Translations under genes and position numbers: made by a program
The notes under the pieces: model-generated
Databases searched by the model: none
Told to the model about the DNA's origin: nothing
What the model saw: only the letters and a program-made list of their open reading frames with translations
Part shown: positions 5,201 through 56,766 of the stretch, piece after piece
How positions within the stretch are numbered: position 1 is the stretch's first letter
Layout of the letters: each line of letters opens with the position of its first letter
Assembly: GCA_030549335.1 (NCBI GenBank)
Contig: CM060195.1
Coordinates: forward strand, 48,703,975 to 48,767,974
Origin: Pontederia crassipes
Taxonomy: Eukaryota; Streptophyta; Magnoliopsida; Commelinales; Pontederiaceae
DNA: 64,000 bases
Direction: 5' to 3'

Positions 5201-6150
5201 GATTTGTACGTGAAGAACCAATCTCGATTGGGACACATATGGTATGAGCATCCAGAATCGAGAATCCATTCACTTGATGATCTGGATTTGTTTGATGCCG
5301 TTACCAACATAACATCTTCATTATCACTTTCTGCTACACCAGCATCTGCAACTTCAGCCTTTTGATTTTTCTTCTTATTGCCATCGTTAATCCTTTTATT
5401 CTTATTCTGTAATTTGTAACACTCTGCTTTGATATGACCCTTCTTCTTGCAATAATTGCAGACTTTATCTCTGTTATTCGACTTGAATCTGGATCTATCT
5501 TGATTTTGATTTCTCGTCTGATGTCTGTCTCTTGCGATCAGACCTGAGGCTTGATCATCAGATTTGCTGCTTGATCCCAATTTATTATCCAACTTTTCTT
5601 TGCTCAGCAGTCTGCCCTTAACATCTTCAAACGTGAGTTTGTCCCTACCGTAGATCATCGTCTCCTTAAAGGTTTTATATGAAGATGGCAGAGAACAAAG
5701 AAGTAATAGGGCCTAATCTTCATCATCAACCTTTGCATCTACGTTCTTCAAATAATTGATTAGGGCAATGAACTCACTGATATGTGATTTGATCGACGTA
5801 CCTTCGGCCATACGAAAGGTGTACAACCGCTACTTCAACACAAGTCGATTCGCTGGGGTTTTCATCAGATACAGAGTTTCCAACTTCGTCCAAAGACCGG
5901 CCGTCATCTTCTCTGCGAGAACTTCCTGAAGAACATCGTTCGTCAGGCACAACTGAATCGCAGACATGGCCTTCTCGTCGAGATCCTCCCAGGCAGACGC
6001 CTTTATGGCGTCAGGCTTTTGACCCGACAACGCTTTCTTCAACCCATTCTGAATCAGGATGACATGCATCCGAACCTGCCACAAACTAAAATTTGTGTTC
6101 CCGTCGAACTTCTCGATGTCGAACTTCATTGTAGTCATCTTCGCGGAAAG
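2236..6150 (-). pseudogene. Copia B gag-pol region
   Basis: Read on the minus strand, the parts are as follows. Gag lies at about 6,150-5,640, with a start like MTTMKFDIEKFDG. The CCHC knuckle CNYCKKKGHIKAEC is near 5,460. The protease signature WILDSG is near 5,250. The GAG-pre-integrase motif LWHMRLGH is near 4,860. The integrase core spans about 4,700-4,390. Reverse transcriptase spans about 3,800-2,800 with the YVDDM catalytic motif. RNase H spans about 2,790-2,240. These are the parts of a Tork-lineage polyprotein. It is a fossil with several breaks. Confidence 0.9.
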
Positions 6151-11935: not shown

Positions 11936-13062
11936 ATGTCGATTCCCAAACTCTCCAACAGCCGCAGAAGGCTGTCTGTGCTGTCTTGACTTTCGTCCTT
12001 CTGAATTTGGGCTTTGCTCTTGACATCATCTCCAACTTCGGTCTCGATGTCGTCCCACGCCTCGTGCGGAAACCCACCCGCTTCAGCCTTCTCTTCTCCG
12101 GCTCCTGTCGCGCACGCCGCCACAGCAATGACCGCGCTCTTTATTGTGCCATCGGTTCCGCAAGAACGTCCTCCTCCGCCTGAGCGCTCGTCGGGTTCGA
12201 GGCAGTGCGAGAAGCGCAAAGGGATAGAGGAGTACGTGCACCCAAGGACGGCCATGCCGCATGAACGACGAGGAGTTTCTGTGGAAGGTGTCCATGGTGC
12301 CCGGCGGGCGAAGGAACCCATACGACCGCATCCCCAATGTGGCGTTCCTGTTCCTTACCAAAGGACTGCTGCCATTAGCGCCGCTCTGGGAGAAGTTCTC
12401 CAAGGGCCACGAGGGGTTGTACTCCATCTACATGCACACGGATCCTGCCTTCAATGAGTCCATGCCGCACGACTCTGTTTTTCATGGAAGACGAGTTCCC
12501 AGCAAGGTCTGTGGTTGTTTGTATTCTTGGTATTTTTTTTTCATGCACCCTTTTATTCTTCAAGAAATAGTACGTTCCGCATGATGTTTGTCTACGAAGA
12601 TGCCGGCGTCACCGGCCGCGGGCAGTACAGGGAGAAGATGCGGCCCCACGTGTCCCTGGAGCAATGGCACAAGGGGTCGCAGTGGTTTGAGGTCGATCGT
12701 AGACTCACGATCGAGATCATCTCCTACGACGTGTACTTTCCCGTCTTCCAGAGGCACTGCACGCCCTCTTGCTACATAGATGAACACTACCTGCCGACCT
12801 TTGTGAACATAAGATTCAGCGGGACGAATGCCCATAGGAGCTTGACTTGGGTCGACTGGTCGAGGCCCGAACCCCATCCAGGCAGGTTTCCGAGGACGAG
12901 CTCACCGTTGAGCTTCTACGGGGAAAGAGGAATGGCAGCAGCTGCACTTACAATGGAGAGGCCACCAGGATTTGCTTCTTGTTGGCGAGGAAGTTTCTGC
13001 CGTGTTCTTTGAACTGATTGCTGATCTTTGCACCGAAGGTCCTCGGCTATGGTGGAAGATAG
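11936..13062 (+). pseudogene. GT14 (DUF266) glycosyltransferase copy 1, broken
   Basis: Plant core-2/I-branching-type GT14 family, a type II membrane enzyme expected in the Golgi. ATG at 11,936 aligns with the ATG of copies 3 and 4. Exon 1 (to 12,506) carries NPYDRIPNVAFLFLTKG and [16 protein letters not shown], with a GT donor site at 12,507. Exon 2 text (WFEVDRR, YFPVFQRHCTPSCYIDEHYL, TWVDWSRP) runs to 13,062. Against copy 3 there are single-base losses near 11,982, 12,255 and 12,900. A deletion joins the intron at about 12,590 straight to mid exon 2, removing the exon's first part including the LLSESC region. This is the oldest-looking copy and cannot encode the enzyme. Confidence 0.88.
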
Positions 13063-13439
13063 AACTTAGATGGCAAACGACTCCATGTCCTGCAAGTTGC
13101 AATTAGCTAGTTGCTTCACGTATGCTGTTGATAATTGTATTTTAAACACATTATAGAAGAACTCTGATGATTCTTTATATAGAGTAATATGTCCATTCTT
13201 TGATTATTTACGGAGGAGATCAACATTGTAGTGTCAAATTAATACAGAATAATATGTCCATTCTTTTGAAAATTAGTCGACACTCCCAAATATTAAATGA
13301 ATGAAAAAAAACAAGAAATATAATTGCATTATATATTCTTCTGCAACACAATTTAAATATGGCATAGCACTATTTGGCATTTCTTCTTACATTGAAGTCC
13401 ATTCATTCTCCTAAACTCGGTTCGCCTTCATTCTTCTAG
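13063..13439. repeat. 3' flank of GT14 copy 1
   Basis: Non-coding; matches the flanks after copies 2 and 3 (tagctagttgcttc, tatggcatagcactatttgg). The same text occurs inverted after copy 4. Confidence 0.7.
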
Positions 13440-14021
13440 CGATCATTTGACTATTGGAATCAGGTGGAATCACAAACGCCCATGTCGGTTCCACCTGGTT
13501 TTAGATCTGGCCCCTTTTTATTTTCTTTTTCACCTTTTTTTGGAATTTGACGTTTTACTTGTTTTTTTCAAATTTTTTTCTTTTATCATTTTCTTTTTTA
13601 ACCTTTGTTATATAACTTAATTTATTTATTATATGTAAAATATAAATAATAAAGGATTAATATAATATTATTTATTATTTCATTATAATTGTTTTAATAT
13701 TTCATTACATATAAAATATTAAAAATGATTTTTATATTTAAATAATATATTTTTTAACAAAATTTTTGTCATAAATTTTTTTAATATATGTATTATGTCT
13801 ATTAATTTTCTAATAATTTTATAACTTATATTTATAATACGTATTTTTAATTAAATCAACCACTAAAATTAACTCATCACATTTACTTTTTCTTGTCATA
13901 TTAACTACTTTATTACTTATCATCAAATTACACTCTATCCAAATACAACCCGAACTAATTTGTCAACTCAACTATTTACGGAAACTTCATGAAACTCAAG
14001 TTCCCGTTGCCAAACGGCCCC
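13440..14021. mobile_element. TIR element M1 in the GT14 3' flank
   Basis: An AT-rich 0.58 kb block ending ttgccaaacggcccc, whose reverse complement GGGGCCGTTTGGCAA matches the start of the related copies at 16,395 and 21,200 (GGGGTCGTTTGGTAA). It is a small non-autonomous DNA transposon with imperfect inverted ends. The superfamily is uncertain (hAT or PIF/Harbinger-like), as no clean target duplication was found. Confidence 0.55.
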
Positions 14022-14161
14022 AATGGTTTTAGGAATTGAGGAATTGAGATATAACTTTGTTTGCAGTCGAAGCTGTTGCAATTGACATATGCAACATATT
14101 GTCGAAGGTTTCAGATACATGGTTCATTCCTTGTATAATCCTAGCTAACAATAAATCAATC

Positions 14162-14479
14162 CACTACACCAAAAAAGTTTTTTAGAAATCAAACACATTA
14201 GTTCCTAGAACTTCAATTTTAGTCTTTAACATTTTTTAGACCAAAATATCTTTGTCCCTCATGGTCCCTACAAGCTTATTATTAAAATGTTTTAATGACC
14301 AAAATTTTTCCATTAATCCTTAAAAAATGGCCCTTTAGTGATCACAAATAAAATTTTGATTTCAAATGATTAAGAATTTGAGACTAGTATCACATTAGTA
14401 TCTAATATTTGTACTTTTAAGAACCAAATATAATTGGTCCCTAAAAAATTGGTCTTTAAATCATAATTTTATTGTAGTG
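14162..14479. mobile_element. CACTA-type MITE, 318 bp
   Basis: Begins CACTACACCAAAAAAG and ends TTTTATTGTAGTG, so the termini are inverted CACTACA repeats. It is flanked by the 3-bp target duplication atc (14,159-14,161 and 14,480-14,482), as CACTA elements make. The interior repeats words such as ttggtccctaaaaa in both orientations. There is no coding capacity. It occurs only between copies 1 and 2 of the GT14 array. Confidence 0.85.
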
Positions 14480-14739
14480 ATCATTTTTTTTGTTGCTGAC
14501 AAGATCACCATTATCAAAGTAAAAAATGGGATACATGATTATAAGCCGTTAGTACCGTAGAGATTAACAATCTTTGCTAAAATTTATTACATAATTTGAC
14601 CTCATATACTAAGTAGAATAATAGAGTTGATAATATTCACATCAAGTTTTGTGAGACTTAAATTCAGACTTTATATTTTATCTTTATTATCTATTAATTA
14701 TAAATTAATTAACTATAGATTTTGTAACGCTCAAGATTT
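14480..14739. other. No feature recognised
   Basis: AT-rich spacer between the MITE and the upstream repeat block; nothing coding is visible. Confidence 0.4.
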
Positions 14740-15180
14740 GGTCCCAATTTAGAGACCGACTTTTATCTTTTCCTTTTATTTCTTTTTTTCTCTAATTTTC
14801 AGAATTTTATAATATTTTATTATCTAACTTTTATGTTAAAATAATAATAAATATTATTTTAATGACTGAAACATTTTTAAGCCATAAAATTCTCAATGCT
14901 CTTCCTTGTGGGAGTCCTATGTGTATTAAATATTCTTTTGGTCCTAAATCAAATTGAAATCCCAAATTCCACTCTAATTATAATTCTTATTCCCAGTAGG
15001 ATTTAACTTTCTTTTCTTACTTTTCCCTTTCTAATCATACTTTTAATACTAGTCTAATTCTAATTCCTTTTCCAAGTAGGATTTGTCTTTTGTTTCTCTT
15101 CATATTTCTTTTCTAATTATATTTCTATTCCTTTTCTACTTTGTATTCTTAATTTGACAATAAATAGTGTGCATGACCTC
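14740..15180. repeat. GT14 upstream repeat block, unit 2 (partial)
   Basis: Shares with 10,850-11,270, 17,570-18,110 and 22,390-22,735 the run with cttttcctttta, the aataataaatattatttta stretch, and the Ctctaattataattctta stretch. Only the promoter-near part of the block is present. Confidence 0.7.
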
Positions 15181-15504
15181 GGTCATAAGTACCCCCAACG
15201 TTCATTGGAGTCAATGTAAAGTGGTATCCATCTCCAACATCAAAACAAAGCTTCCAAACTCTCATTTCTCATTCCTCCTTAGGGGTGTTCAGTGGTTCGG
15301 GTATGGGTTAGAATTTTCTGATCCGAGTAAACCTGACCTGACCTAAAAACCTATTTTTTTATTTATTGTTATTTTTTTAATTTTCAGCTTATATTATGTA
15401 TAAAAAAACATAATGTCAAATCAGACATTATGCCACTTTGGGCACGGAGTCTTCATCCCATGAGGCGTTCGCGCCTCGTCCCTTGTCAATGCGATTTTGA
15501 CTCT
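15181..15504. other. Junction region upstream of GT14 copy 2
   Basis: Starts with remains of the old leader (cataagtaccccc). The last 85 bases (from about 15,420: tgccactttgggca, then cttgtcaatgcgattttgac) match the 3' flank sequence at 17,020-17,095 and 21,830-21,900. A piece of 3' flank is thus joined directly to the middle of exon 2. Confidence 0.6.
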
Positions 15505-15893
15505 GGGTCGCAGTGGTTCGAGGTTGACCCAGACTCGCGGTCGAGATCATCTCTGACGACGTGTACTTCCCCGTCTTCCGGAGGCACTGCACGCCCTCGT
15601 GCTACATAGACGAACACTACCTGCCGACCTTCGTGAACATGAGATTCAGCGGGATGAACGCCGACAGGAGCTTGACTTGGGTCGACTGGTCGAGGCCCGG
15701 ACCCCATCCGGGCAGGTTTCCGAGGACGAGCGTCATCGTTGAGCTCCTGCGGGGAATGAGGAACGGCAGCAGCTACACTTACAATGGAGAGGCCACCAGG
15801 ATTTGCTTCTTGTTCACGAGGAAGTTTCTGCCATGTTCTCTGAACCGATTGTTGATGTTTGCACCGAAGGTCCTCGGCTATGGAGGAAGATAG
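15505..15893 (+). pseudogene. GT14 copy 2, 3' fragment of exon 2
   Basis: Begins inside exon 2 at GSQWFEV and reads to the family's usual C-terminus FAPKVLGYGGR with a stop at 15,893. It has a single-base loss near 15,530; the rest of the exon is open and keeps YFPVFRRHC, YIDEHYLPTF and TWVDWSRPGPHPGRF. Exon 1, the intron and the first half of exon 2 are absent. The exon text is closer to copy 3 than to copy 1. Confidence 0.88.
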
Positions 15894-16394
15894 AACTTAG
15901 AAGGCAAACGACTCCATGTCTCGCGAGTTGCAATTAGCTAGTTGCTTCGTGTATGCTGTTGATAATTGTATTTAAAACACATTATAAAAGAAGTCAGATG
16001 ATTCTTTATACACAGTAATATATCCATTCTTTGATTGTTTATGAAGGAGATCAATAGTGTAGTGTCAAATTAATACATATTTAGTTACTTGTATAAAATG
16101 AAATATGTTCTTTTGAAAATTTTAGCCGTTGCTCCCAAATATTAAATTAATGAAAAAAACAAGAAATATAATTGCATTATATATTTTTCTGCAATACAAT
16201 TTAAATATGGCATAGCACTATTTGGCATTTCTTCTTACATGGAAGTCCATTTATTTGAGCATTGACTTGGGTTCCAACAACTTGAATATGTATTTAGTTT
16301 TGTGGATGGAGATCCTTAAAATATTAATTTATGACAGATCTTGCTATTTTTTCAAACAAAGATGCTTTAAGTTTCGATTCCCAAAACACATCTC
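15894..16394. repeat. 3' flank of GT14 copy 2
   Basis: Non-coding; near-identical to 20,699-21,199 and recognisably related to 13,063-13,439. No gene is visible. Confidence 0.75.
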
Positions 16395-16966
16395 GGGGTC
16401 GTTTGGTAATTGGAACGAGTGGAATGTAATCAGGGTCACGTAACCCTAGTTCCACTTAATAATTCTTTTTCTTTGCAAACAACGACGTGACCTTTTTTTA
16501 TTTTACAAATTATTTTTTTCTTTTAGGTTTTCTTCTTTTTACCTATCTTATATATAATAAATTATTTACTATATGTAAAATATTAATAATAAATAGTTAA
16601 TATAATATTATTTATTACTTATTATTTCCTTAAAAATTCAATATTTTATTAAATATAAATGATTAAAGTTTTATTTTTTATACTTAAATAATATACTTTT
16701 TAACAAAATTTGTACATAAAGTTTTTAATATATATTATGTATTTTACTTTTTTTAAATAATTGTATAATCTATATTTATAATATATATTTTTAATTCAAT
16801 CACCGATTAAAATTAACCCATCACATCCAATTTTTTCGATAACCTAAACTACCTTTTTCCTCATAATCAAATTTCACTCCATCCAAACACACCCCGAACG
16901 AATATGTCAATTCAACTATTCAACAAGAAGTTTGTTGAACTCCGATTTCCATTGTCAAACGATCCC
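16395..16966. mobile_element. TIR element M2
   Basis: Starts GGGGTCGTTTGGTAA and ends TTGTCAAACGATCC, giving imperfect inverted termini around an AT-rich interior of about 550 bp. It is the same family as M1 (13.4-14.0 kb) and near-identical to M3 (21.2-21.8 kb). It is non-autonomous, and its place in the superfamilies is unresolved. Confidence 0.55.
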
Positions 16967-17149
16967 TTCGCGTCCGCCATCCACTGCCAAAGTGGGCATA
17001 ATGCCAAATCGGTCATTATGCCACTTTGGGCAGGGAGTCTTCGTCCCACGAGCCCGTCGCGTCTTGTCCCTTGTCAATGCGACTTTGACTCCTATTAGGA
17101 GTAGGAGTCCCACTCCAAGTGGGAGTAGGAATACAACGAACATCGATAT

Positions 17150-18110
17150 TTTGGTCGACGATTTTGCATGATGAAACTCCGAAACTTGTGCCTAGCACTT
17201 AAATATTGTTCTACTTTGTTGGGACTTCCAAATGATATGTTGGCCACGCTCTCCGGTGTCTCGATTTGCGAGAAATTAAAGGAGGAAGAGGAAGCTCTAA
17301 TGCATAAATTCTGTGTATGCAAATAATACTTTTTAGCCACCCTTTATGTCCTATTTATAGTTCTTAACTAGGATTTTTGACTCATATTGAGCCTTAGACT
17401 AATTCTTCATCAATCACGGTCTTCCATAGTTAATTACATCATGTTAACTATTTTGATTTAATTAAATACGAATTTAACTAATTATTTCATAATGATACTT
17501 ATCAAAATCCATATATACTCAAATTCCTTTTTATCTCCTCCACAACTTCTCTCAATCAAACTCTACTTTTATCTTTTCCTTTTATTTCTTACTTTTCTCT
17601 AATTTTCGGAATAATTTAATTCCATAATATTTTATCATCTAGTTTTTAGATTAAAATAATAATAAATATTATTTTACAACAACAACAACAACAAAGCCTT
17701 ATCCCACTAGGTGGGGTCGGCTACATGGATCATACGACGCCATTCCGCTCTATTAGTATATTCGTTGATCCATGTTCATAAGATTCGACATGATTTTATG
17801 CTGGCTGTCGGGGTCTAACACAATCCTCCTCCTTTATCCGGGCTTGGGACCGGCTATAAAATATAGGCGGAGTTAATAATAAATATTATTTTATTGATTG
17901 AAATATTTTTTAAGGCATAAAATTCTCAATCCTCTTTTATGTCGGAGTCTTATGTCTATAAATATTCTTTTGGTCCTAAATCAAATTGAAATATCTAATC
18001 CCACTCTAATTATAATTCTTACTCCTATTAGGATTCTTTTTTTTCCTTTTTCCTTTCTAATCATACTTTTAATCCTATTCTAATTCTAATTCCTTTTACA
18101 AGTAAGATTT
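17150..18110. repeat. GT14 upstream repeat block, unit 3
   Basis: Near-identical to 21,955-22,735 apart from the SINE. It holds the CTATTTATAG stretch near 17,350, and AT-rich DNA leading to the TATA box of copy 3. Just before it (17,085-17,135) lie short palindromic words built on actcctattaggagt. Confidence 0.75.
17677..17873 (-). mobile_element. Au-type SINE
   Basis: The minus strand contains the hallmark words of the plant Au SINE family: AGCCGGTCCCAAGCCCGG near its start, CATGTAGCCGACCCCACC and TGGGATAAGGCTTTG near its end, then a TTG-repeat tail. It is flanked by a perfect 20-base target duplication (17,657-17,676 and 17,874-17,893). The paralogous site near 22,480-22,500 is empty and carries one copy of that 20-mer. 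It was therefore inserted after the 4 kb duplication, or was absent from the copied allele. Confidence 0.93.
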
Positions 18111-18120
18111 CTCTTCATAT

Positions 18121-18128
18121 TATAAATA
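18121..18128 (+). promoter_or_regulatory. Native TATA box of GT14 copy 3
   Basis: TATAAATA followed by CCC, about 120 bases upstream of the solo LTR insertion. The same box is kept before copy 4. Downstream DNA is a pyrimidine-rich leader (cttcctcctctcattc), typical of a plant 5' UTR. Confidence 0.55.
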
Positions 18129-18246
18129 CCCAGTTCCTTGGAGTCATGACATCTCTCTCCTGCCAAGTTCTTGTCTTCCTCCTCTCATTCTTATTCTTGC
18201 GGAAACTTCCCAGCTTGCATGTGATTGAACAGCCGTCTGTCAGTCC

Positions 18247-19099
18247 TGACCACTAAGGACGCGCCCCGAGCGGGCATGGCCATGCGCGCGAGGAGGCGGG
18301 CGTAGCCGGGATGATTCCTACTCCTAGTAGGAATAGGAGTTGTCCGACACTCCGAAGATCCGACGAGGAGGGATGAGCTTCTGGAAGTGAAGGCTTGGAC
18401 TCCTATCGTGAGTAGGAGGACAAGTGCGTGGAGAAGTTCAGGATCGGAAGGATTTCTACTCCTAGTAGGAATAGGAATCCGGGCATCTCCTATGTCGAGA
18501 AGGACTTGGGCGCGGACAGAGCTTCCTTCTGGATCGAGGGTCACTTGGAGTTGAAGTCCTAATCATAGGAGGACTGAAGAAGGGGAGAGGCCGCAGGAGA
18601 ACAGCCCGAGTCCTAGTAGGACTCGGACTTGTCCTAGCGGGCGCGCCCTGGACATGGCAGGTGCCAGGCGGGTGGCCTGGCCAGTTTGACTTCAAGATGG
18701 ACTTTGAATGGGGTCGAATTCTTCAGGGACTTCAGAAGGATGGATTTCTACTCCTAGTCCAAGAAGGTTTTTCTAGAGAAAGGGCTTGCATGTCTAGTAG
18801 GAGTATGCCCATACTTAGACTAAGAGTTGTTTCTCTTAGGCCCTATAAAAGAACTTGTAATCAAGGCTTGTAAGATCATTCTGGATAATCTGATATTGCT
18901 CAATAGTATTCTCTAGTTTTCTCTAAACTCTTAGCCTTCCTCTCTTCTTCCTGGGCGGGTGTTTTGTTGTGCATCCGGGGCGTGTACAGTCGGGGTCCAA
19001 GACACGTCTAAAAGGGGGCTGATCGGCGACCGAGCAGGGTTTGGCCGAGTCGCACGTCTGGTGTATCATACCCCTTAAGCGTAAGGGTGTGACACAACA
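18247..19099 (+). repeat. Solo LTR at the start codon of GT14 copy 3
   Basis: An 853-bp block with TG...CA ends (TGACCAC...GACACAACA), flanked by the 6-base duplication cagtcc (18,241-18,246 and 19,100-19,105). The right-hand duplication touches the ATG at 19,106. Copy 1 lacks the block. Inside are a TATA box (18,844) and several palindromic CTCCTAGTAGGA words. It is most likely a solo LTR of a gypsy-type element, since internal and partner sequences are absent. It predates the 4 kb duplication because copy 4 has it too. Confidence 0.75.
18844..18851 (+). promoter_or_regulatory. TATA box within the solo LTR
   Basis: TATAAAAG about 255 bases before the GT14 ATG, in gene orientation, followed by a likely LTR transcript start region (acttgtaatcaaggcttg). 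It could serve as an LTR-derived promoter for copy 3. Confidence 0.5.
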
Positions 19100-19105
19100 C
19101 AGTCC

Positions 19106-20698
19106 ATGTCGATCCCCAAACTCTTCAACAACCACAGAAGGCTGTCCATGCTCGTCTTGAGTTTCGTCCTCCTGAGTGTGGGCTTCGCTCTCGGCATCAT
19201 CTCTAGCTTCGGCCTCGGTGTCGTCCCGCGCCTCGCGCGGTACACCCACCCGCTTCAGCCTTCTCTTCTCCAGCTCCAGTCGCGCGTGCCGCCACAGCAA
19301 CAACCGCTCTGTATTGTGTCATCGGTTCTGCCGCACGAACGTCCTCCTCCGCCTGAGCGCCCGTCGGGTTCGAGGCAGCGCGAGAACCGCGCAGGAATAG
19401 AGGAGTACGTGCACCCAAGTACGGCCAAGCACCGCATGAGCGACGAGGAGTTGCTGTGGAGGGCGTCCATGGTGCCCGGCGTGAGGACCGCTGCCATTAG
19501 CGCCGCTCTGGGAGAAGTTCTTCAAGGGCCACGAGGGGTTGTACTCCATCTACGTGCACACGGATCCTGCCTTCAACGAGTCCATGCCGCACGACTCTGT
19601 TTTCCATGGACGACGAGTTCCCAGCAAGGTATGCGGTTGTTTGTATTCTTGGTATTTTTTTCATGTACTCTTTTTCTTCAAGAAATAGTACGTTCAGCAC
19701 CATGTTTGTTTACGTACCTTCCATTTTTTGAGTTATTTTTTATGTGCAAAAGAATATGATGTAGGGGTCTAACTACATGCACAAATTTATAATTAATTAT
19801 GCATATCTCATTTGTTCAACAACAAAATCTATATTTCTACCAACTTCTATATATTCTTTTCTTCTCCCTGTAAACTCATTGCAACTCTCACCTCCTAAAA
19901 GATGCATACATTCCATTGTCCATTGACCAAAGCTTCAAACAACTCTATTTCTCCATAAATGACCGCACATTACGTTTATAATTTGTGCATGTATGTTACA
20001 ATTTTATCTTTGCTGACGTGCGTGTTGGGTCTCTGCATGATTCGGTGCAGGCGGTGGAATGGGGGCAAGTGAACATGATGGATGCCGAGCGCTGGCTGCT
20101 GGCCAATGCGCTCCTCGACTTCTCCAATGAGCGCTTTGTTCTGCTGTCCGAGTCGTGCATCACCCTCTTCAACTTCCCCACCGTCTACTCGTACCTCATC
20201 AACTCCAAACAGACCTACGTCTCGGTCTACGACGATGACGGCGCCACCGGCCGCGGGCGGTATCGGGAGAAGATGCGGCCCCAGGTGTCCCTGGAGCAAT
20301 GGCGCAAGGGCTCGCAGTGGTTCGAGGACGACCGCAGACTCGCAGTCGAGATCATCTCCGACAACGTGTACTTCCCCGTCTTTCGGAGGCACTGCACGCC
20401 CTCGTGCTACATAGACGAACACTACCTGCCGACCTTCGTGAACATGAGATTCAGCGGGATGAACGCCGACAGGATCTTGACTTGGGTCGACTGCTCGAGG
20501 CCCGTACCCCATCCGGGCAGGTTTCCGAGGACGAGTGTCACCGTTGAGCTCCTGCGGGGAATGAGGAACGGCAGCAGCTGCACTTACAATGGAGAGGCCA
20601 CCAGGATTTGCTTCTTGTTCGCGAGGAAGTTTCTGTCATATTCTCTGAACCGATTGTTGATGTTTGCACCGAAGGTCCTCGGCTATGGAGGAAGATAG
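19106..20698 (+). pseudogene. GT14 (DUF266) glycosyltransferase copy 3, near-complete
   Basis: Two exons: 19,106-19,628 and 20,051-20,698, with a 422-bp GT...AG intron in phase 0. The N-terminus has a signal-anchor (LSMLVLSFVLLSVGF, about residues 14-30), a proline-rich stem, then the GT14 domain: [81 protein letters not shown]. Compared with copies 1 and 4, 53 bases of exon 1 are missing at 19,483/19,484 (the NPYDR..VAFLFLT segment). This shifts the frame; adding 53 back gives exactly 192 codons in exon 1. The conserved WVDWSR motif reads WVDCSR here. It would be a 407-residue enzyme if intact, the usual family size. It is probably a recent pseudogene. Confidence 0.9.
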
Positions 20699-21199
20699 AA
20701 CTTAGAAGGCAAACGACTCCATGTCTCGCGAGTTGCAATTAGCTAGTTGCTTCGTGTATGCTGTTGATAATTGTATTTGAAACACATTATAAAAAAAGTC
20801 AGATGATTCTTTATACACAGTAATATATCCATTCTTTGATTGTTTATGGAGGAGATCAATAGTGTAGTGTCAAATTAATACATATTTAGTTACTTGTATA
20901 AAATGAAATATGTTCTTTTGAAAATTTTAGCCGTTGCTCCCAAATATTAAATTAATGAAAAAAACAAGAAATATAATTGCATTATATATTTTTCTGCAAC
21001 ACAATTTAAATATGGCATAGCACTATTTGGCATTTCTTCTTACATGGAAGTCCATTTATTTGAGCTTTGACTTGGGTTCCAACAACTTGAATATGTATTT
21101 AGTTTTCTGAATGGAGATCCATAAAATATTAATTTATGACAGATCTTGCTATTTTTTCAAACAAAGATGCTTTAAGTTTCGATTCCCAAAACACATCTC
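20699..21199. repeat. 3' flank of GT14 copy 3
   Basis: Non-coding; near-identical to 15,894-16,394. Part of it (about 20,930-21,108) appears inverted at 24,130-24,312. Confidence 0.75.
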
Positions 21200-21773
21200 G
21201 GAGTCGTTTGGTAATTGGAACGAGTGGAATGTAATCAGGGTCACGTAACCCTAGTTCCGCTTAATAGTTCTTTTTCTTTGCAAACAACGCCGTGACCTTT
21301 TTTTATTTTACAAATTATTTTTTTCTTTTAGGTTTTCTTCTTTTTACCTATTTTATATATAATAAATTATTTACTATATGTAAAATATTAATAATAAATA
21401 GTTAATATAATATTATTTATTACTTATTATTTCCTTAAAAATTCAATATTTTATTAAATATAAATGATTAAAGTTTTATTTTTTATACTTAAATAATATA
21501 TTTTTTTAACAAAATTTGTACATAAAGTTTTTAATATATATTATGTATTTTACTTTTTTTTAAATAATTCTATAATCTATGTTTATAATACATATTTTTA
21601 ATTCAATCACCGATTAAAATTAACCCATCACATCCACTTTTTTCGATCACCTAAACTACCTTTTTCCTCATAATCAAATTTCACTCCATCCAAACACACC
21701 CCGAACGAATATGTCAATTCAACTATTCAACAAGAAGTTTGTTGAACTCCGATTTCCATTGTCAAACGATCCC
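21200..21773. mobile_element. TIR element M3
   Basis: Duplicate of M2, with ends GGAGTCGTTTGGTAA and TTGTCAAACGATCCC. It was carried along by the 4 kb duplication rather than inserted separately. Confidence 0.55.
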
Positions 21774-21954
21774 TTCGCGTCCGCCATCCACTGCCAAAGT
21801 GGGCATAATGCCAAATCGGTCATTATGCCACTTTGGGCAGGGAGTCTTCGTCCCACGAGCCCGTCACGTCTTGTCCCTTGTCAATGCGACTTTGACTCCT
21901 ATTAGGAGTAGGAGTCCCACTCCAAGTGGGAGTAGGAATACAACGAACATCGAC

Positions 21955-22735
21955 AACGAACATCGATATTTTGGTCGACGATTTTGCATGATGAAACTCC
22001 GAAACTTGTGCCTAGCACTTAAATATTGTTCTACTTTGTTGGGACTTCCAAATGATATGTTGGCCACGCTCTCCGATGTCTCGATTTGCGAGAAATTAAA
22101 GGAGGAAGAGGAAGCTCTAATGCATAAATTCTGTGTATGCAAATAATACTTTTTAGCCACCCTTTATGTCCTATTTATAGTTCTTAACTAGGATTTTTGA
22201 CTCATATTGAGCCTTAGACTAATTCTTCATCAATCACGGTCTTCCATAGTTAATTACATCATGTTAACTATTTTGATTTAATTAAATACGAATTTAACTA
22301 ATTATTTCATAATGATACTTATCAAAATCCATATATACTCAAATTCCTTTTTATCTCCTCCACAACTTCTCTCAATCAAACTCTACTTTTATCTTTTCCT
22401 TTTATTTCTTACTTTTCTCTAATTTTCGGAATAATTTAATTCCATAATATTTTATCATCTAGTTTTTAGATTAAAATAATAATAAATATTATTTTATTGA
22501 TTGAAATATTTTTTAAGGCATAAAATTCTCAATCCTCTTTTATGTCGGAGTCTTATATCTATTAAATATTCTTTTGGTCCTAAATAAAATTGAAATATCT
22601 AATCCCACTCTAATTATAATTCTTACTCCCATTAGGATTCTTTTTTTTCCTTTTTTCTTTCTAATCATACTTTTAATCCTATTCTAATTCTAATTCCTTT
22701 TACAAGTAAGATTTCTCTTCATATTATAAATACCC
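21955..22735. repeat. GT14 upstream repeat block, unit 4
   Basis: Near-identical to unit 3 without the SINE. A short local doubling (cgacaacgaacat) near 21,950 distinguishes it. Confidence 0.75.
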
Positions 22736-22742
22736 AATCTTC
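22735..22742 (+). promoter_or_regulatory. Native TATA box of GT14 copy 4
   Basis: TATAAATA then CCC, in the same context as 18,121. Confidence 0.5.
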
Positions 22743-22813
22743 CTCCTCCTCTCATTCTTATTCTTGCGAAAACTTCCCAGCTTGCATGTGATTGAACAGC
22801 CGTCTGTCACTCA

Positions 22814-23653
22814 CGACCACTGAGGACGCGCCCCGAGCGGGCATGGCCGTGCACGAGGAGGCGGGCGCGGCCGGGATGATTCCTACTCCTAGTAGGAATA
22901 GGAGTTGTCCGACACTCCGTAGATTCGACGAGGAGGGAGGAGCTTCTGGAAGTGAAGGCTTGGACTCCTATCGTGAGTAGGAGGACAAGTGCGTGGAGAA
23001 GTTCAGGATCGGAAGGATTCCTACTCCTAGTAGGAATAGGAATCCGGGCCTCTCCTAGGTCGAGTAGGACTTGGGCGTGGACGGAGCTTCCTTCTGGATC
23101 GAGGGTCACTTGGAGTTGAAGTCCTAATCATAGGAGGGCTGAAGAAGGGGAGAGGCCGCAGGAGAACAGCCCGAGTCCTAGTAGGACTCGGACTTGTCCC
23201 AGCGGGCGCGCCCTGGATATGGCAGGTGCCAGGCGGGTGGCCTGGCCAGTTTGACTTCAAGATGGACTTTGAATGGGGTCGAATTCTTCAGGGACTTCAG
23301 AAGGATGGATTTCTACTCTTAGTCCAAGAAGGTTTTTCTAGAGAAAGGGCTTGCATGCCTAGTAGGAGTAGGTCCATACTTAGACTAGGAGTTGTTTTTC
23401 TTAGGCCCTATAAAAGGACTTGTAATCAAGGCTTGTAAGACCATCCTGGATAATCTGAGATTGCTCAATAGTATTCCTCTAAACTCTTAGCCTCCCTCTC
23501 TTCTTCCTAGGCGGGTGTTTTGTTGTGCATCCGGTGCGTGTACAGTCGGGGTCCAAGGCACGTCTAAAAGGGGGCTGATCGGCGACCGAGCAGGATTTGG
23601 TCGAGCCGCACGTCTGGTGTATCATACCTTAAGCGTAAGGGCGTGACACGTCG
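22814..23653 (+). repeat. Solo LTR at the start codon of GT14 copy 4
   Basis: Paralogue of 18,247-19,099, 840 bp, ending GACACGTCG before cagtcc and the ATG at 23,660. Its left flank reads cactca, a worn form of cagtcc. TATAAAAG lies at 23,409-23,416. It keeps the same palindromic CTCCTAGTAGGA words. Confidence 0.72.
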
Positions 23654-23659
23654 CAGTCC

Positions 23660-24111
23660 ATGTCGATCCCCAAACTCTTCAACAACCACAGAAGGTTGTC
23701 CATGCTCGTCTTGAGTTTCGTCCTTCTGAGTGTGGGCTTCGCTCACGGCATCATCTCTAGCTTCGGCCTCGGTGTCGTCCCGCGCCTCGCGCAGTACACC
23801 CACCCACTTCAGCCTTCTCTTCTCCAGCTCCAGTCGTGCGTGCCGCCACAGCAACAACCGCTCCGTATTGTGTCATCGGTTCTGCCGCACGAACATCCTC
23901 CTACGCCTGAGCGCCCGTCGGGTTCGAGGCAGTGCGAGAACCGCGCAGGAATAGAGGAGTACGTGCACCCAAGGACGACCATGCACCGCATGAGCAATGG
24001 GGAGTTGCTGTGGAGGGTGTCCATGGTGCCCGGCGTGCGAAGGAACCCATACGACCGCGTCCCCAAGGTGGCGTTCCTCTTCCTAACCAGAGGACCACTG
24101 CCATTAGCGCC
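23660..24111 (+). pseudogene. GT14 copy 4, exon 1 fragment
   Basis: Open from ATG through the signal-anchor, proline-rich stem and the start of the GT14 domain (NPYDRVPKVAFLFLTRGPLPLAP). Unlike copy 3 it retains the 53-base segment. At 24,111, in the codons before LWEKF, family homology stops. About 20 unrelated bases follow, and then the array's own 3' flank in reverse orientation. The remaining exon 1, intron and exon 2 are lost. No functional product is expected beyond a 153-residue membrane-anchored stub. Confidence 0.88.
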
Positions 24112-24129
24112 TAACAATTAATATTTGAA

Positions 24130-25505: not shown

Positions 25506-27308
25506 GATGCGTTGTAATTGTAACAATGAAATTTGCTAGCAAGTGCACTAGTCGCTCAAGTAATATAGAAAAAAAAGAGTAAGAGTGTCGAACCCACGAG
25601 GAATATTATTAATTCAATATCTGGATTTATAAATTAATAAAAGAGGAAAAACATGGATTTTGAAAATGAGTTTTATAAAATAAAATAAAGAAAATAAGAT
25701 AAAGATAAGATAGTGGTGTTGAAGTTAGGCCTTAGGATGAAAATAAATTAGGATAAATATTTGAACCATAAAAGATAAATTTAATCTTTAAAGATGAATT
25801 AGAAATTTTCCCAAGTTATTAATTTACAAGATTAACATCACAGAGTCCACAAACTGGTAATTCTGCTATTTAATCCGGTAAATCAAACTATCTTAAATTT
25901 AATCAAACCTAAAGTCCCACAAACTGGTATTCGTCAGATAAGATTAAAATTAAGATGCATTAATATGAAAATCCTAGACTATTAATCATTCCACAAACTG
26001 GTTAGATTAACAGACCACATAAACTTGATTCTCCACACACTAGTTATCAAATTTATGTCAATTATTAATTTCACATAAAATCAATTAATTTAATTAATGA
26101 ATTCTGAAATTAAATAATCCACAAACTGGTAAGTACTCAACTCAGAAATCCAAATAATTAAATCAAAAGCATTAAGCATAATTAACTAATTGATCAGAAA
26201 AGATTAAAACAAATAATATAGGGTCCAAATAATTTCCCTTCAATAATAATCTCCTAAAATGAAATAAATAAAAATATGGAGTTCATCCTAGAAATTCTGG
26301 AGAGATAATAACAAAGTAATAATAATTGGAAGAATTACACCCAAATAGACAAAAGTCGAAGCTTCGGATCACGGGCAGACAGTCGGGCAGCCTCTCGGAC
26401 TTGATCAGGGTCGCGATCAACTTCCAGCCGTCGCACCTCTCTCCTCTTGGTCGTAGCCTGCAGAGCTCACGACTCGTCGTGGAAGAAACCTGAACTTCAG
26501 AGCACGAATTGAAACGATGGATTCTTCACATATTTATAGGGTGCGGACGACCTTCAATTTGATCTCGGCCGTAACATCGTACGGTTGACTTTAAAATTAT
26601 AAGATAAACTCGGCCAAAGATAAATTCTTTTATCATTACGCCCAAAGATAAATCCTTTTTATCTTTACTCCCTTAGAGTCTCGGCCGTAAGGAAAATATT
26701 TTATCTTTACTCCTTTCCATTACTCCCAAAGGATAAAAATCCTTTTATCTTTACGCCCAAACAATTTTATCTTTACACCTTCGTATATCGGCCAAAACGG
26801 ATGATTTCAATTGCCATTACTCCCTCCAAATCTCGGCCGTAAGGAATGAACTTATCTTGTTACGCCCAAAGATAAACTCGATTGATTGTTACACCTTCAT
26901 CTTCATGCCATTACGCCCTCCGAATTTCGGCCGTAAGGAAGGACTTCTCCTGTTACGCCCAAAAGATAAAAAACATTTATCTTTACGCCTTCAAATGTTA
27001 GCCGTAACAAAGAATTAAATCTTGTTACTCCTTTTGAATTTCGGCCGTAACGACTTGGGTGTAAAGCCAAATCTCGGCCGTAATAAATAATTTCTTTGAA
27101 TTTCGGCCGAGATTCGAATTTTCCTGCAAATAATTATCAAAATATAGTTAATCCATCCACAATTAAAATATTCAGCGATTTTAATAATTAAAATTGATAA
27201 ATCCGGAATTATGATTAGAAGTGACTAAAAATGATGCATGCCATGATCAAATTATAGAAAATTTCATTAAAATAATTAACTAAAATATGTTATATTTTGC
27301 ACGCATCA
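25506..27308 (-). repeat. 3' LTR of element E
   Basis: Partner of 34,408-36,210. It contains five or six spaced CCACAAACTGGTA words (25,856-26,125), a minus-strand TATA box in the ATATTTATAGGG stretch near 26,530, and a downstream run of CTCGGCCGTAA variants (26,565-27,110). Confidence 0.93.
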
Positions 27309-27323
27309 AACTCCCCCAAGCTT
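27309..27323 (-). other. Polypurine tract of element E
   Basis: The minus strand reads AAGCTTGGGGGAGTT directly before the LTR, the usual Athila-type polypurine tract. Confidence 0.85.
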
Positions 27324-28550
27324 AAAGTCTTGCTTGTCCTCAAGCAAAAATTCAAAGCAAGGCTCAAGAAAGTTCCATCATAGCCGCCACATTGTCAACT
27401 GATTAATTTTCTCACACAATTCATCTGCACACCTACTACTCAGCATCTTATCATTTTCCATGCACTTAGCTTCATAGAAATTCTGAATGCTATACAAATT
27501 TAAACAATCTCAAATTCAGCCTTGCAGAAAAAATAAATTGTCTGTCAAATAATAGCATTAATATTGAACATATAAGTACTAATTGAGCTTAAAACTTTTT
27601 CTTTTTCTTTTCATTTTTCAATTTTATTTTCAATCATTTAAAAGTTCTAATCTTCAAGCAGGATTGCACAAGGAAGTCCATGTAGCGGGCTTTGGATTGA
27701 TGACTCCCAAACCAGATGGCCTTAGGGCACTAGGTGATAAAGCACCCATCGAGTTTACTTGCCCGAACAACCAAGGTTCTGAATGAAGAGTTCGAACTTA
27801 GCCATGATTCAGTACTCCTGTGCTTCTCCATATTCCACAAGATGGTCCATGTAGCAGGTTTTCGATCGACGGATCCCAGAGCAGTTGCCCTTAGGTCGCC
27901 AGGCATGAACCCCTACGGATCTAATTACCCGAACACACCTTGGTTCCGGATAACACTTTTGTACCTACACATAACTTTATTCAACTTCTTTTTTTTTTAT
28001 TTAACATAATTATTTGTTGGGGTTTAACTAACCCTTCTTTTTTATAAGCTCAAAAAGTACTTGATATGGTCAATAATAAGTCTACTATTATCAAGACTTA
28101 AAAGAGATAAAAAGGCATGAATATGATTTTGTCGTCTAGTCATTCATAATTCTACTTAGCATAGGCACATAGTCCATAAGTTTGATACTAAAATAGCAAG
28201 TGATAAGAAAGAAAAGTATTCAAATTTCATCAATTAACAACATGTCTTTGAACTTCTACTAAAAGATAATTAACACAGTAAGACAAGAGTTTGTTAGATG
28301 GTAGCAAAAATAAATGCATGCAATGGTATTTTTTTAGAAAATTTTCAAATTTTTAATTTTTTTTGGATTTTTTTTAAATAGATGCAAACATAAGCAAATA
28401 AACAAAAAGATACATAAAATGCAAACTCCCCCAAGCTTGAACCAGACACTGTCCTCAGTGTTAAGCCAGCAAGGGAAAGTGATACATACTCAATAAAAAG
28501 GAAAATTTAAAGAAACGAAAATAAAGAAAAGGGAAAAGACACAACCGGAT
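27324..28550 (-). other. 3' untranslated region of element E
   Basis: AT-rich, non-coding. Two diverged 110-base blocks (27,660-27,780 and 27,838-27,955) repeat the pattern GTCCATGTAGC..GG, GACTCCC/GATCCCA and CTTAGG. A second AAGCTTGGGGGAG-like tract lies near 28,425-28,440, so polypurine-like tracts flank both sides of this region. Confidence 0.5.
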
Positions 28551-30230
28551 TTATTGTCTGCGGGGTGGCGATGGTGGATAGTAGCTGAGATTTCCTTGGC
28601 GCATATGATACTCATGGATGCGTCTCGTCATGCGCGCATGTTGATTCTGAAGGGATTCGAAGCGACTCTGACGATCATCCATATTTCTAAATTCAGCTTG
28701 AATGTTGGTCAGCTCTTGTGCTTGTCGAAGTTGCTCTTCCTGAATAGCGTGCAACTGCCCTGACTGACGAAGTTGCTCTTCTTGAAAAGTGTGAAACTCC
28801 CCTGCTTGACGAAGTTGTTCATCATACATTGATTCCCATAAGTTTTGCATGGAAGCATAGTCAGGCTGAGGTGGCGGAGGTGGATAGTAAGTCTGCTCTG
28901 GAGCTGAAGTAAAAGTGGGCTCTGGTGCTATATAGCGATTCTGCACAGGTTCTTGTAAAGGGGCAGATATTTCCATCGAATCGCGTTCCTCATAAGGAGT
29001 AGAAGGTATGAACGAGGAATCAGAAGAGCTCTCTTGTGCTGGAGATGGAATCGGAGAAGGTACCGGCATATAAGGTGAATGGACGGATGTGGCATATTGG
29101 GAAGCTGCCGGTGATATAGCCTGGAATCCTTGTTGCTGTTGAAGGTAGGGTTGGGCTGCCGCATAATCAGTAGAATCAAACCAGGAGAAAGGTTCATCCT
29201 GGTGTAGCTGTCTGACAGAGGTAGATGGTCCTGCAGGTGGAATTACTGGAGCTACGACCTGCCTAAAAAGGAGCCAATTATTTGGATTAATCGGCGTAAA
29301 AGCATCTCGATCTGAGCAGGGCACCTCCTGATGGTGGCCTTTAAAAATAAAAACTTTGATCCCTGAGTTGTTGGTTTTCACGAGACCCATAGCTTGAATG
29401 GTCCTACGAGTGAGGTGAGTGTTTCCTGGCACAGCTTCGAGATCATCTAAGTCAAGTTGTAGGTGCTGAGCGATAGGTGTGAGAAGGGCACCCATATTAA
29501 TGCTACCGCCACGATGAGTAGTGCGGCGCTGAAATCGACGAATGAGGAAGGCACCCACATTAACGGGAGTTTTGTGAAGCATGCTGTGGATGAGATATAA
29601 CTCTCCTTCTGAGACGGCACCATCATTATCACTGCGTCCACTTATGGTGTTGCTTAGCATGCGATGGACGTAGCGCAGAACAGGATTTTGAATTGAGCTA
29701 TCTTTAGCGGTGTTCCAAACCAATCGATCTTCTTCTGTTATCTGTTTCCAAAAAGTTTCAGCCTCAAAGTCAGCAGGTACAGAAAGAGATCCATGGTTGG
29801 GAAATCCATAGATATTATTAATCTCTCCTAGAGTGAGAGTAAATGGTCGTCCATAAAGTTGGAATGAAATGCGGGGCTGATCATAGTTCCTGCCATCTAA
29901 ATTAAAGATTTCCAGAGATGAGAGGAATTCCATAATTAGTACTTCATAAGTTGGTCACCAAGAATGCACAAAGTCAGATAGTCCAATTTGAGAAAATAAT
30001 AGATGAGTATCTGCAAGTAAATTATACTCCCTCAGCAATTCAGTATCTGAAAATCTGGTGGCATGAATTCGAATATCACACATCCGTTCATATCGAGCTT
30101 GATACTCCGGCTTAGTCCAATAATAATCTCCGGGGTAGGAGATTAATTGTGAGGGCTGTGGGGTCGGCTGAGCATTCGGATGTCGTCGTTCATGACGTCC
30201 CCTCCATATATTAGCAAATCGCCTCATCTT
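28551..30230 (-). pseudogene. ATHILA ORF-1-like region of element E
   Basis: The minus strand reads MRRFANIWRGRHER near 30,230 and then the plant ATHILA ORF-1 family pattern: TELLREYNLLADTH, EFLSSLEIF, FQLYGRPFTLTLGEIN, YVHRMLSNTISGR, GELYLIHSMLH. A proline/glutamine-rich C-terminal tail with a coiled-coil of EEQLRQ repeats follows. The longest open part is 460 residues. The role of this protein family is unknown. One break is visible. Confidence 0.8.
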
Positions 30231-30269
30231 GATCTGGATAAATAAAGAAAAGGTACCGGCTCGGTGGAA

Positions 30270-31290
30270 GCGACTTGAGGTTTCGACCGTAGTATTCGAT
30301 GAAGAACCGGCTGAAGGTCGGAGGTGACTCGGCCGTAAGGGACCGGTTGACGAAGAACTTCGGCCGTAATTGATGAAGCTCGGCCGGAGATTGGAGTTTG
30401 GCCGTAAGAAGTTGGAGACGTGATTCGGAACTCGGCCGTAAGGAGTTGATGAATCTGTAGATTTCGGCCGTAAAGTGAAAAAACTCGCCCGGAGCAACCG
30501 TAAGAGAGCGGCGGAGATGGTGTGACTTCGGCCGTAAAACGAAGATGACGTGGAGGCTTGGCCGTAACGTACTAGGCGTAAGGATCGGCTGTTGGCGTTT
30601 GAGACTTCGGCTGTAATAAATGTCGGTGCGGTGGAAGACCGGCCGTAACGCACAAGGAAGCGCTGGAACTTCGGCCGTAAGGAGTTGCTCGGCCGGAGTC
30701 GAGTGGAGTTTCACTTCGGCCGTAAGGTAGAAAGCTCGGCCGTAATGAAGTCTTGGTGCGCGGTGGCTTGGAGAAAGCTCGGCCGGAGTCGAGTGGAGTT
30801 TCACTTCGGCCGTAATTGATCTGCAATATGCGAGAAGAGGTAAGTATTTTATAGATAAATTTATGGGGGTAACACTCCGACAGCGCGCAGTGAAAGGTCA
30901 AATCCGGGCGTAAAGGCATGCATTTTTTCAAGGTATGTCCGTGGTCTGCTGATGTGACATCTCGGCCGTAATGGAATGGTGGCAGGGCGTAATAGGAACC
31001 CGCCGCTCTTGTCATGTCTTCGGCCGTAAAGAGCATCGTAGAGCGTGATCTTCGGCCGTAACGATGTGGCCTCTGGTCATGTCTATTGGAATCTTTACGG
31101 CGTGGTCAACGAGGTGATTCTCGGCCGTAATGGAATGGTGGGTGGCAGGGCGTAACGACGGTCGCTTCGGCCGTAATGTCCGAGCTTGATGCATGTGTGA
31201 CAACTCGGCCGTAATGCGCACGTAACGAGGGTGGCAGGGCGTAATGTCTGAGCTTCGGCCGTAGAGAGAATCAATTCTTGAAATTTACGC
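30270..31290 (-). repeat. CGGCCGTAA-rich spacer of element E (inner)
   Basis: A 1 kb stretch crowded with TCGGCCGTAA variants at uneven spacing, mixed with GGAGTCGAGTGGAGTTTCAC-type doublings (30,690-30,710 and 30,787-30,805). On the minus strand the word reads TTACGGCCGA, which has no stop in any frame. Long open frames rich in LRPS, YGRS and TAE therefore arise; I take these as by-products, not proteins. Confidence 0.75.
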
Positions 31291-31621
31291 TCATGCTTGG
31301 AGTTGATGCCCTTGAATTTATCTCTCCTTACAAACATTAAATATTAATTAAATTAAATGACTCCATAATAAAATAATAAAATTATCACCGAAATTAAGAT
31401 ATTAACAACTAATTAAACTAATTTAAAAAAAAATGAAAAAATAAAAATAAAAAGGATAGAAATAGTTCTGATTTATAGTCGTCAGCTTGACTTAGTTCTG
31501 ATGAAAATCAAGGCCTATTTTGCTCTTCTCCTCTTGGATTTTTTTCCGTGTTACTTGGGAGAGAGCCCGGTGTACGTCCAGTTAGTTGTGCCGCCATCTG
31601 TCCCAGTTGTCTTTCCAGATT

Positions 31622-32896
31622 TCAAATTGATGCATCCTGACTCGTGGCTCTAGATTCCATATTCTTCTGCAATGCTTGCATTGTGTCTATGATCTGTGCC
31701 ATCATCTCCTGCATATGATTTGATGATTGATGTTGGGGAGTGTCAGATTGCCTTTTCAGTATATAATCTTTTGATGGACCAGAAGATTGGCCTTGGTTCT
31801 GATTATAGGCAAACTTCGGATTATGTCTCCATCCATAATCGTTGTTCCTGTAAAATGGATTGGAAATAAAGTTAGCATTTTCAATTTGATTTGAATCTGA
31901 AGTGTTACCTGTAGGGCTATAATTGCTAGAATTCCCCATTAGTGACATCATCTGCTCGAATTTTTGATTAAGTGACTCCAGCTGAGCCACTATTTCAGAA
32001 GATTGTATTCCTTGTGTAGCATGTACATCATGAGTCCGGCGAGATGGTCTCCTTTCTTGGCTTGACTTGAGTGCTACAGCTTCAATTATATCTTGTATCT
32101 CACTAGGACGTTTAGATCCCAGTACTATCCCTCCTGCTGATTGATCGAGTTTGTCTTGATCTGCAGGTCGTAATCCATGGTAAAAATCTTCCATTACTTG
32201 CCATTTTGGAATTCGGTTGTCAGGAACTCTGGCCAGCAGTTCCTTATATCGTTCCCAGGCTTCATATAACGTCTCGTTATCGTCTTGAACAAATGCCCTC
32301 AGCTCCCTTCGATATTTGCCTGCCTTTTGTGGTGGGCAATATTTTCCAACAAACTTTTCTACCAGCTCCAACCAAGAATGAATCGATCCTGCAGGCAAAG
32401 TTTTAAACCAAGTGGAAGCTTTGTCACGTAAAGATTGAGGAAATAATAATAAACGAATAACTTCAGAAGAAACATTATTATTTCTAAATGTGCTCAGAGT
32501 GGCAAGAAATTTATCAAGGTGATCGTGAGGGTCTTCATGAAATCCTCCACCAAATTGGGATGCTTGTATCATCCTCACGATTGCGGGATTTATCTCAAAA
32601 TTATTTGCGTTAATATCAGGCAGCACGATGCATGATTCTCGGTCACTGTATCTGGCCGAGACATATTCTCTCATAGAAAGTTCTGCTTCATCTTCTCGCC
32701 GATTATTATATGGTGGAACCAGTTCATTTTGTTGCTCTAGTATCTGATTGTCGCGTGCTTGTTCCGCCATTTTTCTTATATTTCTTCGTAATCGACGATA
32801 GGTTCTTTCAATCTCAGGATCAAATTCCAACAGTGGATTTGAACTTCTAGTGCGCTTATCAGAAGATTCCAGGATTGGTTGTGATTTAATTTTCAA
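31622..32896 (-). CDS. Gag of element E
   Basis: A 424-residue open frame with a typical plant gypsy gag: DPEIERTYRRLRRN near the N-terminus, then the retrotransposon gag core (HLDKFLATLSTF, LFPQSLRDKASTWFKTLP, FVGKYCPPQKAGKYRREL, ETLYEAWERYKELLARVPDN). Last comes a glutamine/serine-rich tail without an obvious CCHC knuckle. The start is chosen at MKIKSQPILESSDKRTR. It is related to the gag remnants of D (36.6 kb) and F (49.8 kb). Confidence 0.88.
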   Translation of the reverse strand: MKIKSQPILESSDKRTRSSNPLLEFDPEIERTYRRLRRNIRKMAEQARDNQILEQQNELVPPYNNRREDEAELSMREYVSARYSDRESCIVLPDINANNFEINPAIVRMIQASQFGGGFHEDPHDHLDKFLATLSTFRNNNVSSEVIRLLLFPQSLRDKASTWFKTLPAGSIHSWLELVEKFVGKYCPPQKAGKYRRELRAFVQDDNETLYEAWERYKELLARVPDNRIPKWQVMEDFYHGLRPADQDKLDQSAGGIVLGSKRPSEIQDIIEAVALKSSQERRPSRRTHDVHATQGIQSSEIVAQLESLNQKFEQMMSLMGNSSNYSPTGNTSDSNQIENANFISNPFYRNNDYGWRHNPKFAYNQNQGQSSGPSKDYILKRQSDTPQHQSSNHMQEMMAQIIDTMQALQKNMESRATSQDASI

Positions 32897-34383: not shown

Positions 34384-34401
34384 TCCCCGGCAACGGCGCC
34401 A
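34384..34401 (-). other. Primer binding site of element E (tRNA-Asp)
   Basis: The minus strand reads TGGCGCCGTTGCCGGGGA, complementary to the 3' end of plant tRNA-Asp (CCCCGGCAACGGCGCCA). This is the primer used by Athila/Tat elements. It lies six bases inside the 5' LTR. Confidence 0.92.
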
Positions 34402-34407
34402 AAAACT

Positions 34408-49572: not shown

Positions 49573-49578
49573 AGTTTT

Positions 49579-49596
49579 TGGCGCCGTTGCCGGGGA
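49579..49596 (+). other. Primer binding site of element F (tRNA-Asp)
   Basis: TGGCGCCGTTGCCGGGGA, an exact complement of the plant tRNA-Asp 3' end, six bases inside the LTR. Confidence 0.95.
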
Positions 49597-49758
49597 TTTG
49601 AAGTCAATTAGGCTAACTTAGATAGTTTATATTAGTTTTATATTAGTTTTTAGTCCATTTGTTAGGCCAATTTTTAGTTTTTGCAAGTTATCATTTCTAA
49701 TTTTTCATTCTTGTCTAGTTTTCATTATTTTATCAATTTTATACTTCTGAATTCATTT

Positions 49759-51174: not shown

Positions 51175-51231
51175 CCAGAGGTGAACCCTAAAGAACAAGT
51201 CAAGGCAATTTAACTAAAGAGTGGAAGGCTA

Positions 51232-56751: not shown

Positions 56752-56766
56752 AAGCTTTGGGGAATT
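56752..56766 (+). other. Polypurine tract of element F
   Basis: AAGCTTTGGGGAATT directly before the 3' LTR. Confidence 0.85.

Follow-up and report, generated by a model that had tools for sequence, protein, structure and literature searches.

A solo LTR of a Ty3/gypsy family in the 5' untranslated region of GT14 genes of Pontederia crassipes

Introduction

This locus raises the question of how a block of LTR-like sequence came to lie a few nucleotides before the ATG of a GT14 (Branch) gene, and whether the block may have supplied that gene with a promoter or is a relic beside genes that died. An earlier note had read it as a solo LTR of gypsy type inserted exactly between the native leader and the ATG, with the arrangement duplicated at a further gene copy. 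These readings were followed up in a window of 64 000 nucleotides (C13:48703975-48767974), the window being the whole stretch of DNA analysed, and by comparison with the genome (1.13 Gb in 43 contigs).

Material and methods

The LTR block was searched for in the genome, giving at least 42 matches from 40 scored of 1398 first-look candidates. Sequences were fetched for 38 LTR-matching places, and the C14 counterpart (L009) was handled separately. L027, L043, L045 and L046 were excluded from the analysis of LTR ends for want of a match to both ends, leaving 33 other copies, whose ends were projected by alignment with window positions 18238 and 19094. The search with GT14 exon 1 gave 15 strong places, 12 of which were read at the start codon, leaving out L058 (first 36 nt unmatched) and the distant L060 and L061. 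Upstream ATGs were counted from 30 nt after each TATA box. Features are listed in table 1.

Table 1. Features at GT14 copies 3 and 4, in window coordinates.
Feature	Position	Strand	Basis or remark
Native upstream region and 5' leader, GT14 copy 3	17874..18237	+	Aligns with upstream sequence in copy 4, C14 copies and LTR-free paralogs L078/L079
Left target-site duplication, CGTC	18234..18237	+	CGTC also found after the LTR in copy 4 and C14; family flanks fit 4-bp duplications
Solo LTR, Ty3/gypsy family, TGTCAG...GTGACA, 857 bp	18238..19094	+	Aligned to the 33 other LTRs; neither PBS nor purine tract adjoining
LTR TATA motif, TATAAAA	18844..18850	+	In 32/33 other LTR copies, copy 4 and C14
Right target-site duplication, decayed to CAAC	19095..19098	+	CGTC in copy 4 (23649-23652) and in C14
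Last 7 nt of native leader, directly before ATG	19099..19105	+	Continuous with CCGTC/CTGTC in 7/12 GT14 copies, LTR-free
GT14 copy 3, pseudogene	19106..20698; exons 19106-19628, 20051-20698	+	53-bp deletion near 19483
Solo LTR at copy 4, duplicate of that at copy 3	22805..23648	+	CGTC on both sides
GT14 copy 4, exon 1 only, truncated	23660..24112	+	Homology stops near 24112

Structure and family of the LTR

The genome search proposed in the earlier note was run and found the block recurring genome-wide, with many copies adjoining a primer-binding site (PBS) or a purine tract; this recurrence is not chance. Alignment with the other copies gave the edges listed in table 1 and replaced the start at 18241 and the 853-bp length given before. 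Among the 33 other copies, the start reads TGTCA in 32 and the end TGACA in 29; a TGGTATCA-type PBS follows 15 of them, a purine tract precedes 13, and 5 have neither. At copy 3 a single LTR with family-matching ends was found, in the sense of the GT14 gene and in its 5' UTR, flanked on both sides by native leader, with no PBS on the right and no purine tract on the left. Its earlier identification as a solo LTR is borne out by the ends, by the native leader on both sides and by the target duplication described below.

Eight neighbouring pairs of LTRs were taken, by their spacing, as full-length elements, with LTR-LTR differences of 1.9 to 6.9%. Separate open frames of one element matched Retrotrans_gag, an aspartyl protease, RT_RNaseH and Integrase_H2C2 (Pfam) in gypsy order; RVT_1 was not listed, rve fell below the Pfam cut-off, and inspection by eye of the 3' end region of one element copy showed no chromodomain. 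With a PBS, a purine tract and gag-pol between two LTRs, the family belongs to Ty3/gypsy, and the earlier gypsy assignment stands on the gag, protease, RNase H and integrase parts inside this related element.

Target duplications of 4 bp were exact in three of the eight pairs, had one mismatch in four and two mismatches in one; of five solo LTRs, three had exact duplications, one had a single mismatch and one was non-matching. The first base was C in 16/20 left and 15/18 right flanks, and the last base G in 17/20 and 16/18, respectively. The duplications of this LTR family have a strong C..G edge preference (CATG, CGCG, CACG). Duplications of 4 bp are described as a known minority in plants, although Galadriel, Phygy and Bryco have them more often than any other length (PMC6911290). 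The present family is like these, as they are characterized there, in its mostly 4-bp duplications and gypsy-type gag-pol parts, and differs in favouring C as first and G as last base (PMC6911290).

Other elements were observed in the window. An Athila-type gypsy element (25570-34834) has minus-strand open reading frames at 28554-32896 with ATHILA ORF-1 and gag matches, and its flanking repeats, which are 99% alike, probably mark a young insertion. A second gypsy-type element (47645-58813) has plus-strand reverse transcriptase, RNase H and integrase frames, and the repeats on either side of these are 92-95% alike. Copia-type fragments with RVT_2 and gag-pre-integrase matches lie on the minus strand at 2736-5658. 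For an rbcL-like insert, PDB entry 1wdd, a rice structure, came out as the top match.

The insertion site

The left flank of the insertion reads GCCGTC. To the right of the LTR follow CGTC, GCAGTCC and ATG in copy 4, CGTC, ACAGTCC and ATG in C14, and CAAC, ACAGTCC and ATG in copy 3, giving duplications of CGTC/CGTC in copy 4 and C14 and of CGTC/CAAC in copy 3. A match of four bases is weak by itself, and uninterrupted sites in paralogs add support. At the 12 GT14 start codons the uninterrupted site was found in seven copies (for example GCCGTCGCAGTCC-ATG in L085), a shorter leader in two (L080 and L081) and the LTR in three, so that the LTR is absent from the start of 9/12. Because the uninterrupted site is present in seven copies, the LTR is placed 11 nt before the ATG, which in copy 3 stands at 19106. 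The position claimed for the block, between native leader and ATG, therefore holds, and the word 'exactly' does not: 4 nt of target duplication and 7 nt of leader intervene, and the right edge falls short of the ATG, contrary to what had been stated. The pair of cagtcc hexamers earlier regarded as bounding the block was also considered as the target duplication and was rejected. Its right member is native leader and its left member is LTR sequence, copy 4 reading TGTCACTCA there and C14 TGTCACTCC; the left form was present only in copy 3 among the LTR copies examined, and the pair is a coincidence of that copy.

Origin and duplication of the LTR-bearing copies

Duplication of the arrangement with copy 4, as previously noted, was found (94% identical). 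The same leader-LTR-ATG junction also precedes a GT14 frame on the partner chromosome C14, at L077 (C14:5117001-5127000; the copy itself at 5122.9-5124.7 kb). Compared with the majority of the 33 others, the LTRs of copy 3, copy 4 and C14 have 44 changes common to all three; a further 13 unite copies 3 and 4, whereas each of the other two groupings is supported by 1. Because of these common changes and the identical junction in three copies, a single insertion is the simple reading, and the pattern supports an insertion that would be older than the divergence of C13 and C14.

C13 and C14 contain colinear stretches in opposite orientation, one of which (5.4 kb) is 89.6% identical, and from about 24127 the DNA after copy 4 matches C14 sequence in inverted orientation. 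Site patterns in three segments favoured pairing copy 3 with copy 4 and the two C14 copies with each other, by 4 versus 1, 5 versus 1 and 24 versus 0. Since two blocks stand in the same order on both chromosomes, either each chromosome underwent an independent duplication or conversion homogenized older duplicates; the order of duplication and conversion is uncertain. Upstream of copies 3 and 4, window 17000-17873 and 21815-22440 differ by only 0.3%, whereas the adjoining leader and LTR differ by 2.8-4.7% (4.7% for the first LTR half), and this contrast likely reflects recent conversion or the edge of a duplication. Because of the same contrast, gene conversion is a likely cause of an imbalance in private leader changes (15 in C14 versus 2 in copy 3) that selection does not explain. 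C9/C10 carry another, separate GT14 pair, with 95.2% identity across 2.7 kb; its flanking pieces are 86, 79 and 92% identical over 1430, 776 and 227 bp, respectively.

Fate of the genes and the promoter question

Broken GT14 copies, with and without the LTR, are numerous across window 11938-24112 and L082-L085. The deletion in copy 3 shifts the frame, with a stop after 200 codons if the transcript is spliced, and the exon 1 fragment of copy 4 gave no match in the Branch scan; damage to these two genes was absent from the earlier note. As both LTR-bearing window genes are dead, the arrangement in the window is a relic, and because both are broken, LTR-driven transcription there would yield no whole enzyme. 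The frame at L077 is intact (401 aa; Branch match in exon 1, 3.6e-13) and is the only open one found in an LTR-bearing copy.

That the LTR itself disabled the gene by parting the leader from the ATG, through upstream ATGs, methylation or premature polyadenylation, and that all LTR-bearing copies are dead or dying, is a serious possibility falling a little short of probable. It would fit the breakage of copies 3 and 4, as well as a second leader and LTR on C14, in which the LTR breaks off near its position 427 and the 2.4 kb fetched beyond the break contained no exon match. CpG decay points the same way, the rate of loss of ancestral CpGs in the three LTRs being 3.9-7.0 times the rate of change elsewhere, as in methylated DNA (7/50 in copy 3, 9/50 in copy 4 and 9/46 in C14 since the split, other sites 2.6-3.6%); because coding regions gave similar ratios (3.6-5.7), this decay is not LTR-specific and not decisive as a silencing mark. 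Private non-synonymous to synonymous changes (N:S) in C14 were 9:6 (p=0.14), indistinguishable from neutral, and in copy 3 they were 22:13 (p=0.07), so that neither is significantly non-neutral. The C14 frame, however, is fully open at a synonymous distance of about 0.10 from copy 3, and the exon 1 frames of LTR-free copies (win1, L082, L083, L084 and L085) are broken too, which makes gene death common in the GT14 family without the LTR.

The opposite outcome, in which the LTR replaced the native promoter of the C14 gene and the gene survives because of it, is rather unlikely. The two TATA boxes on which the earlier note had based its promoter reading, the native one at 18121 upstream of the LTR and a second at 18844 within the block in gene orientation, were both located. 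The upstream box reads TATTATAAATA in copies 3 and 4 and TATTATGAAAA on C14, where the LTR box is kept and is the sole match to TATA[AT]A[AGT] within 1300 nt of the ATG. This loss would favour replacement, but it is weak evidence of a promoter switch because L078, L079 and L080, paralogs that are intact and carry no LTR, likewise show no TATA[AT]A[AGT] motif inside 400 nt of the ATG. Upstream ATGs in copy 3 numbered 12 from the native TATA versus 0 from the LTR TATA; in C14 there were 0 after the LTR TATA and 11 in the read-through region. Judged from sequence, a start at the LTR TATA would produce a predicted leader of about 210-230 nt free of upstream ATGs, and read-through would include about a dozen. 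As 16/32 of the other TATA-bearing LTRs are likewise without an ATG after the TATA, the ATG-free stretch is partly a family trait.

Survival of the C14 frame was considered in the same way. Its sole coding indel is an in-frame 18-bp deletion; private noncoding indels numbered 2 in the LTR, 1-2 in the intron and 1-5 in the 3' flank, depending on the outgroup. With L079 as outgroup, private exon changes were fewer in C14 than in copy 3 (18 versus 38, p=0.010; 15 versus 35 with three outgroups), and those in intron plus 3' flank were equal (15 versus 15). The exon-versus-noncoding contrast between the two copies was, however, not significant (p=0.16), the N:S of C14 resembles that of copy 3, and 18 random changes would leave the frame free of stops with a probability of 0.55, so that the counts are at most suggestive of constraint on the C14 gene. 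The LTR promoter is not visibly conserved either: private changes from the TATA to the LTR end versus upstream were 15/218 versus 22/601 sites in C14, 8 versus 14 in copy 3 and 3 versus 11 in copy 4, with no clear reduction in any of the three, and the CpG losses also speak against replacement. On this evidence a replaced promoter on C14 is no more than a possibility. A fuller version would be quite improbable: that on C14 the native TATA decayed, transcription passed to the LTR TATA with its ATG-free leader and the frame remained open, while the C13 sisters, which bear this LTR too, retained the old TATA and died.

The idea that the block is a duplicated promoter module native to the GT14 array, and no LTR, agrees with its duplication along with the gene but is refuted by copies on many contigs with a PBS or purine tract, by the gag-pol parts of the element read and by its absence from the start of most GT14 copies, and has next to no probability.

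Discussion

The account that we favour, and hold to be very probable as a whole, begins, as the anatomy of the site shows, with one Ty3/gypsy element landing in the 5' UTR of an ancestral GT14 gene, in the sense of the gene and 11 nt ahead of its ATG. We infer that the element then recombined to a solo LTR. The LTR-bearing allele would predate the divergence of C13 and C14 and would have been tandemly duplicated with the gene, and both LTR-bearing window genes died afterwards, leaving the relic. Any protein from an LTR-bearing copy would most likely be made via a start at the LTR TATA, and the intact C14 copy is where this may be relevant. That one LTR copy landed near an ATG may well be chance.

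In blood orange, a copia LTR reportedly acts as promoter of Ruby, with transcription said to have been demonstrated. The common idea is that of an LTR giving a TATA box and a transcript start to a plant gene, the GT14 case being a matter of sequence only. A solo LTR near a plant coding region has precedents, as with Gret1 at VvMYBA1 (PMC10249860). In the grape allele VvMYBA1b, as described there, a solo LTR of Gret1 (Ty3/gypsy) flanks a MYB gene on its 5' side, the full element at VvMYBA1 having blocked expression and its loss having restored it, with a colour phenotype (PMC10249860). In both cases a solo LTR of gypsy type lies shortly upstream of coding sequence, and the grape gene can be expressed with it; by that description grape offers expression and phenotype, whereas the GT14 case is known from DNA alone and its window genes are broken (PMC10249860). 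No such GT14 case was seen among the best matches of a title-level literature search, which is no proof of its being unpublished.

The locus provides a well-resolved case, since a single genome contains the filled site, paralog sites free of the insertion, a target duplication, the donor family and a copy on the partner chromosome. A solo LTR has become the sequence beside a start codon, and the gene is open in one copy and dead in others. If the switch on C14 were true, it would be a retained promoter switch traceable within one genome across two chromosomes. Should the C14 copy be transcribed from the LTR, the chromosomes would offer a natural comparison of promoter replacement with gene death; if it is not, the arrangement would be an ordinary relic.
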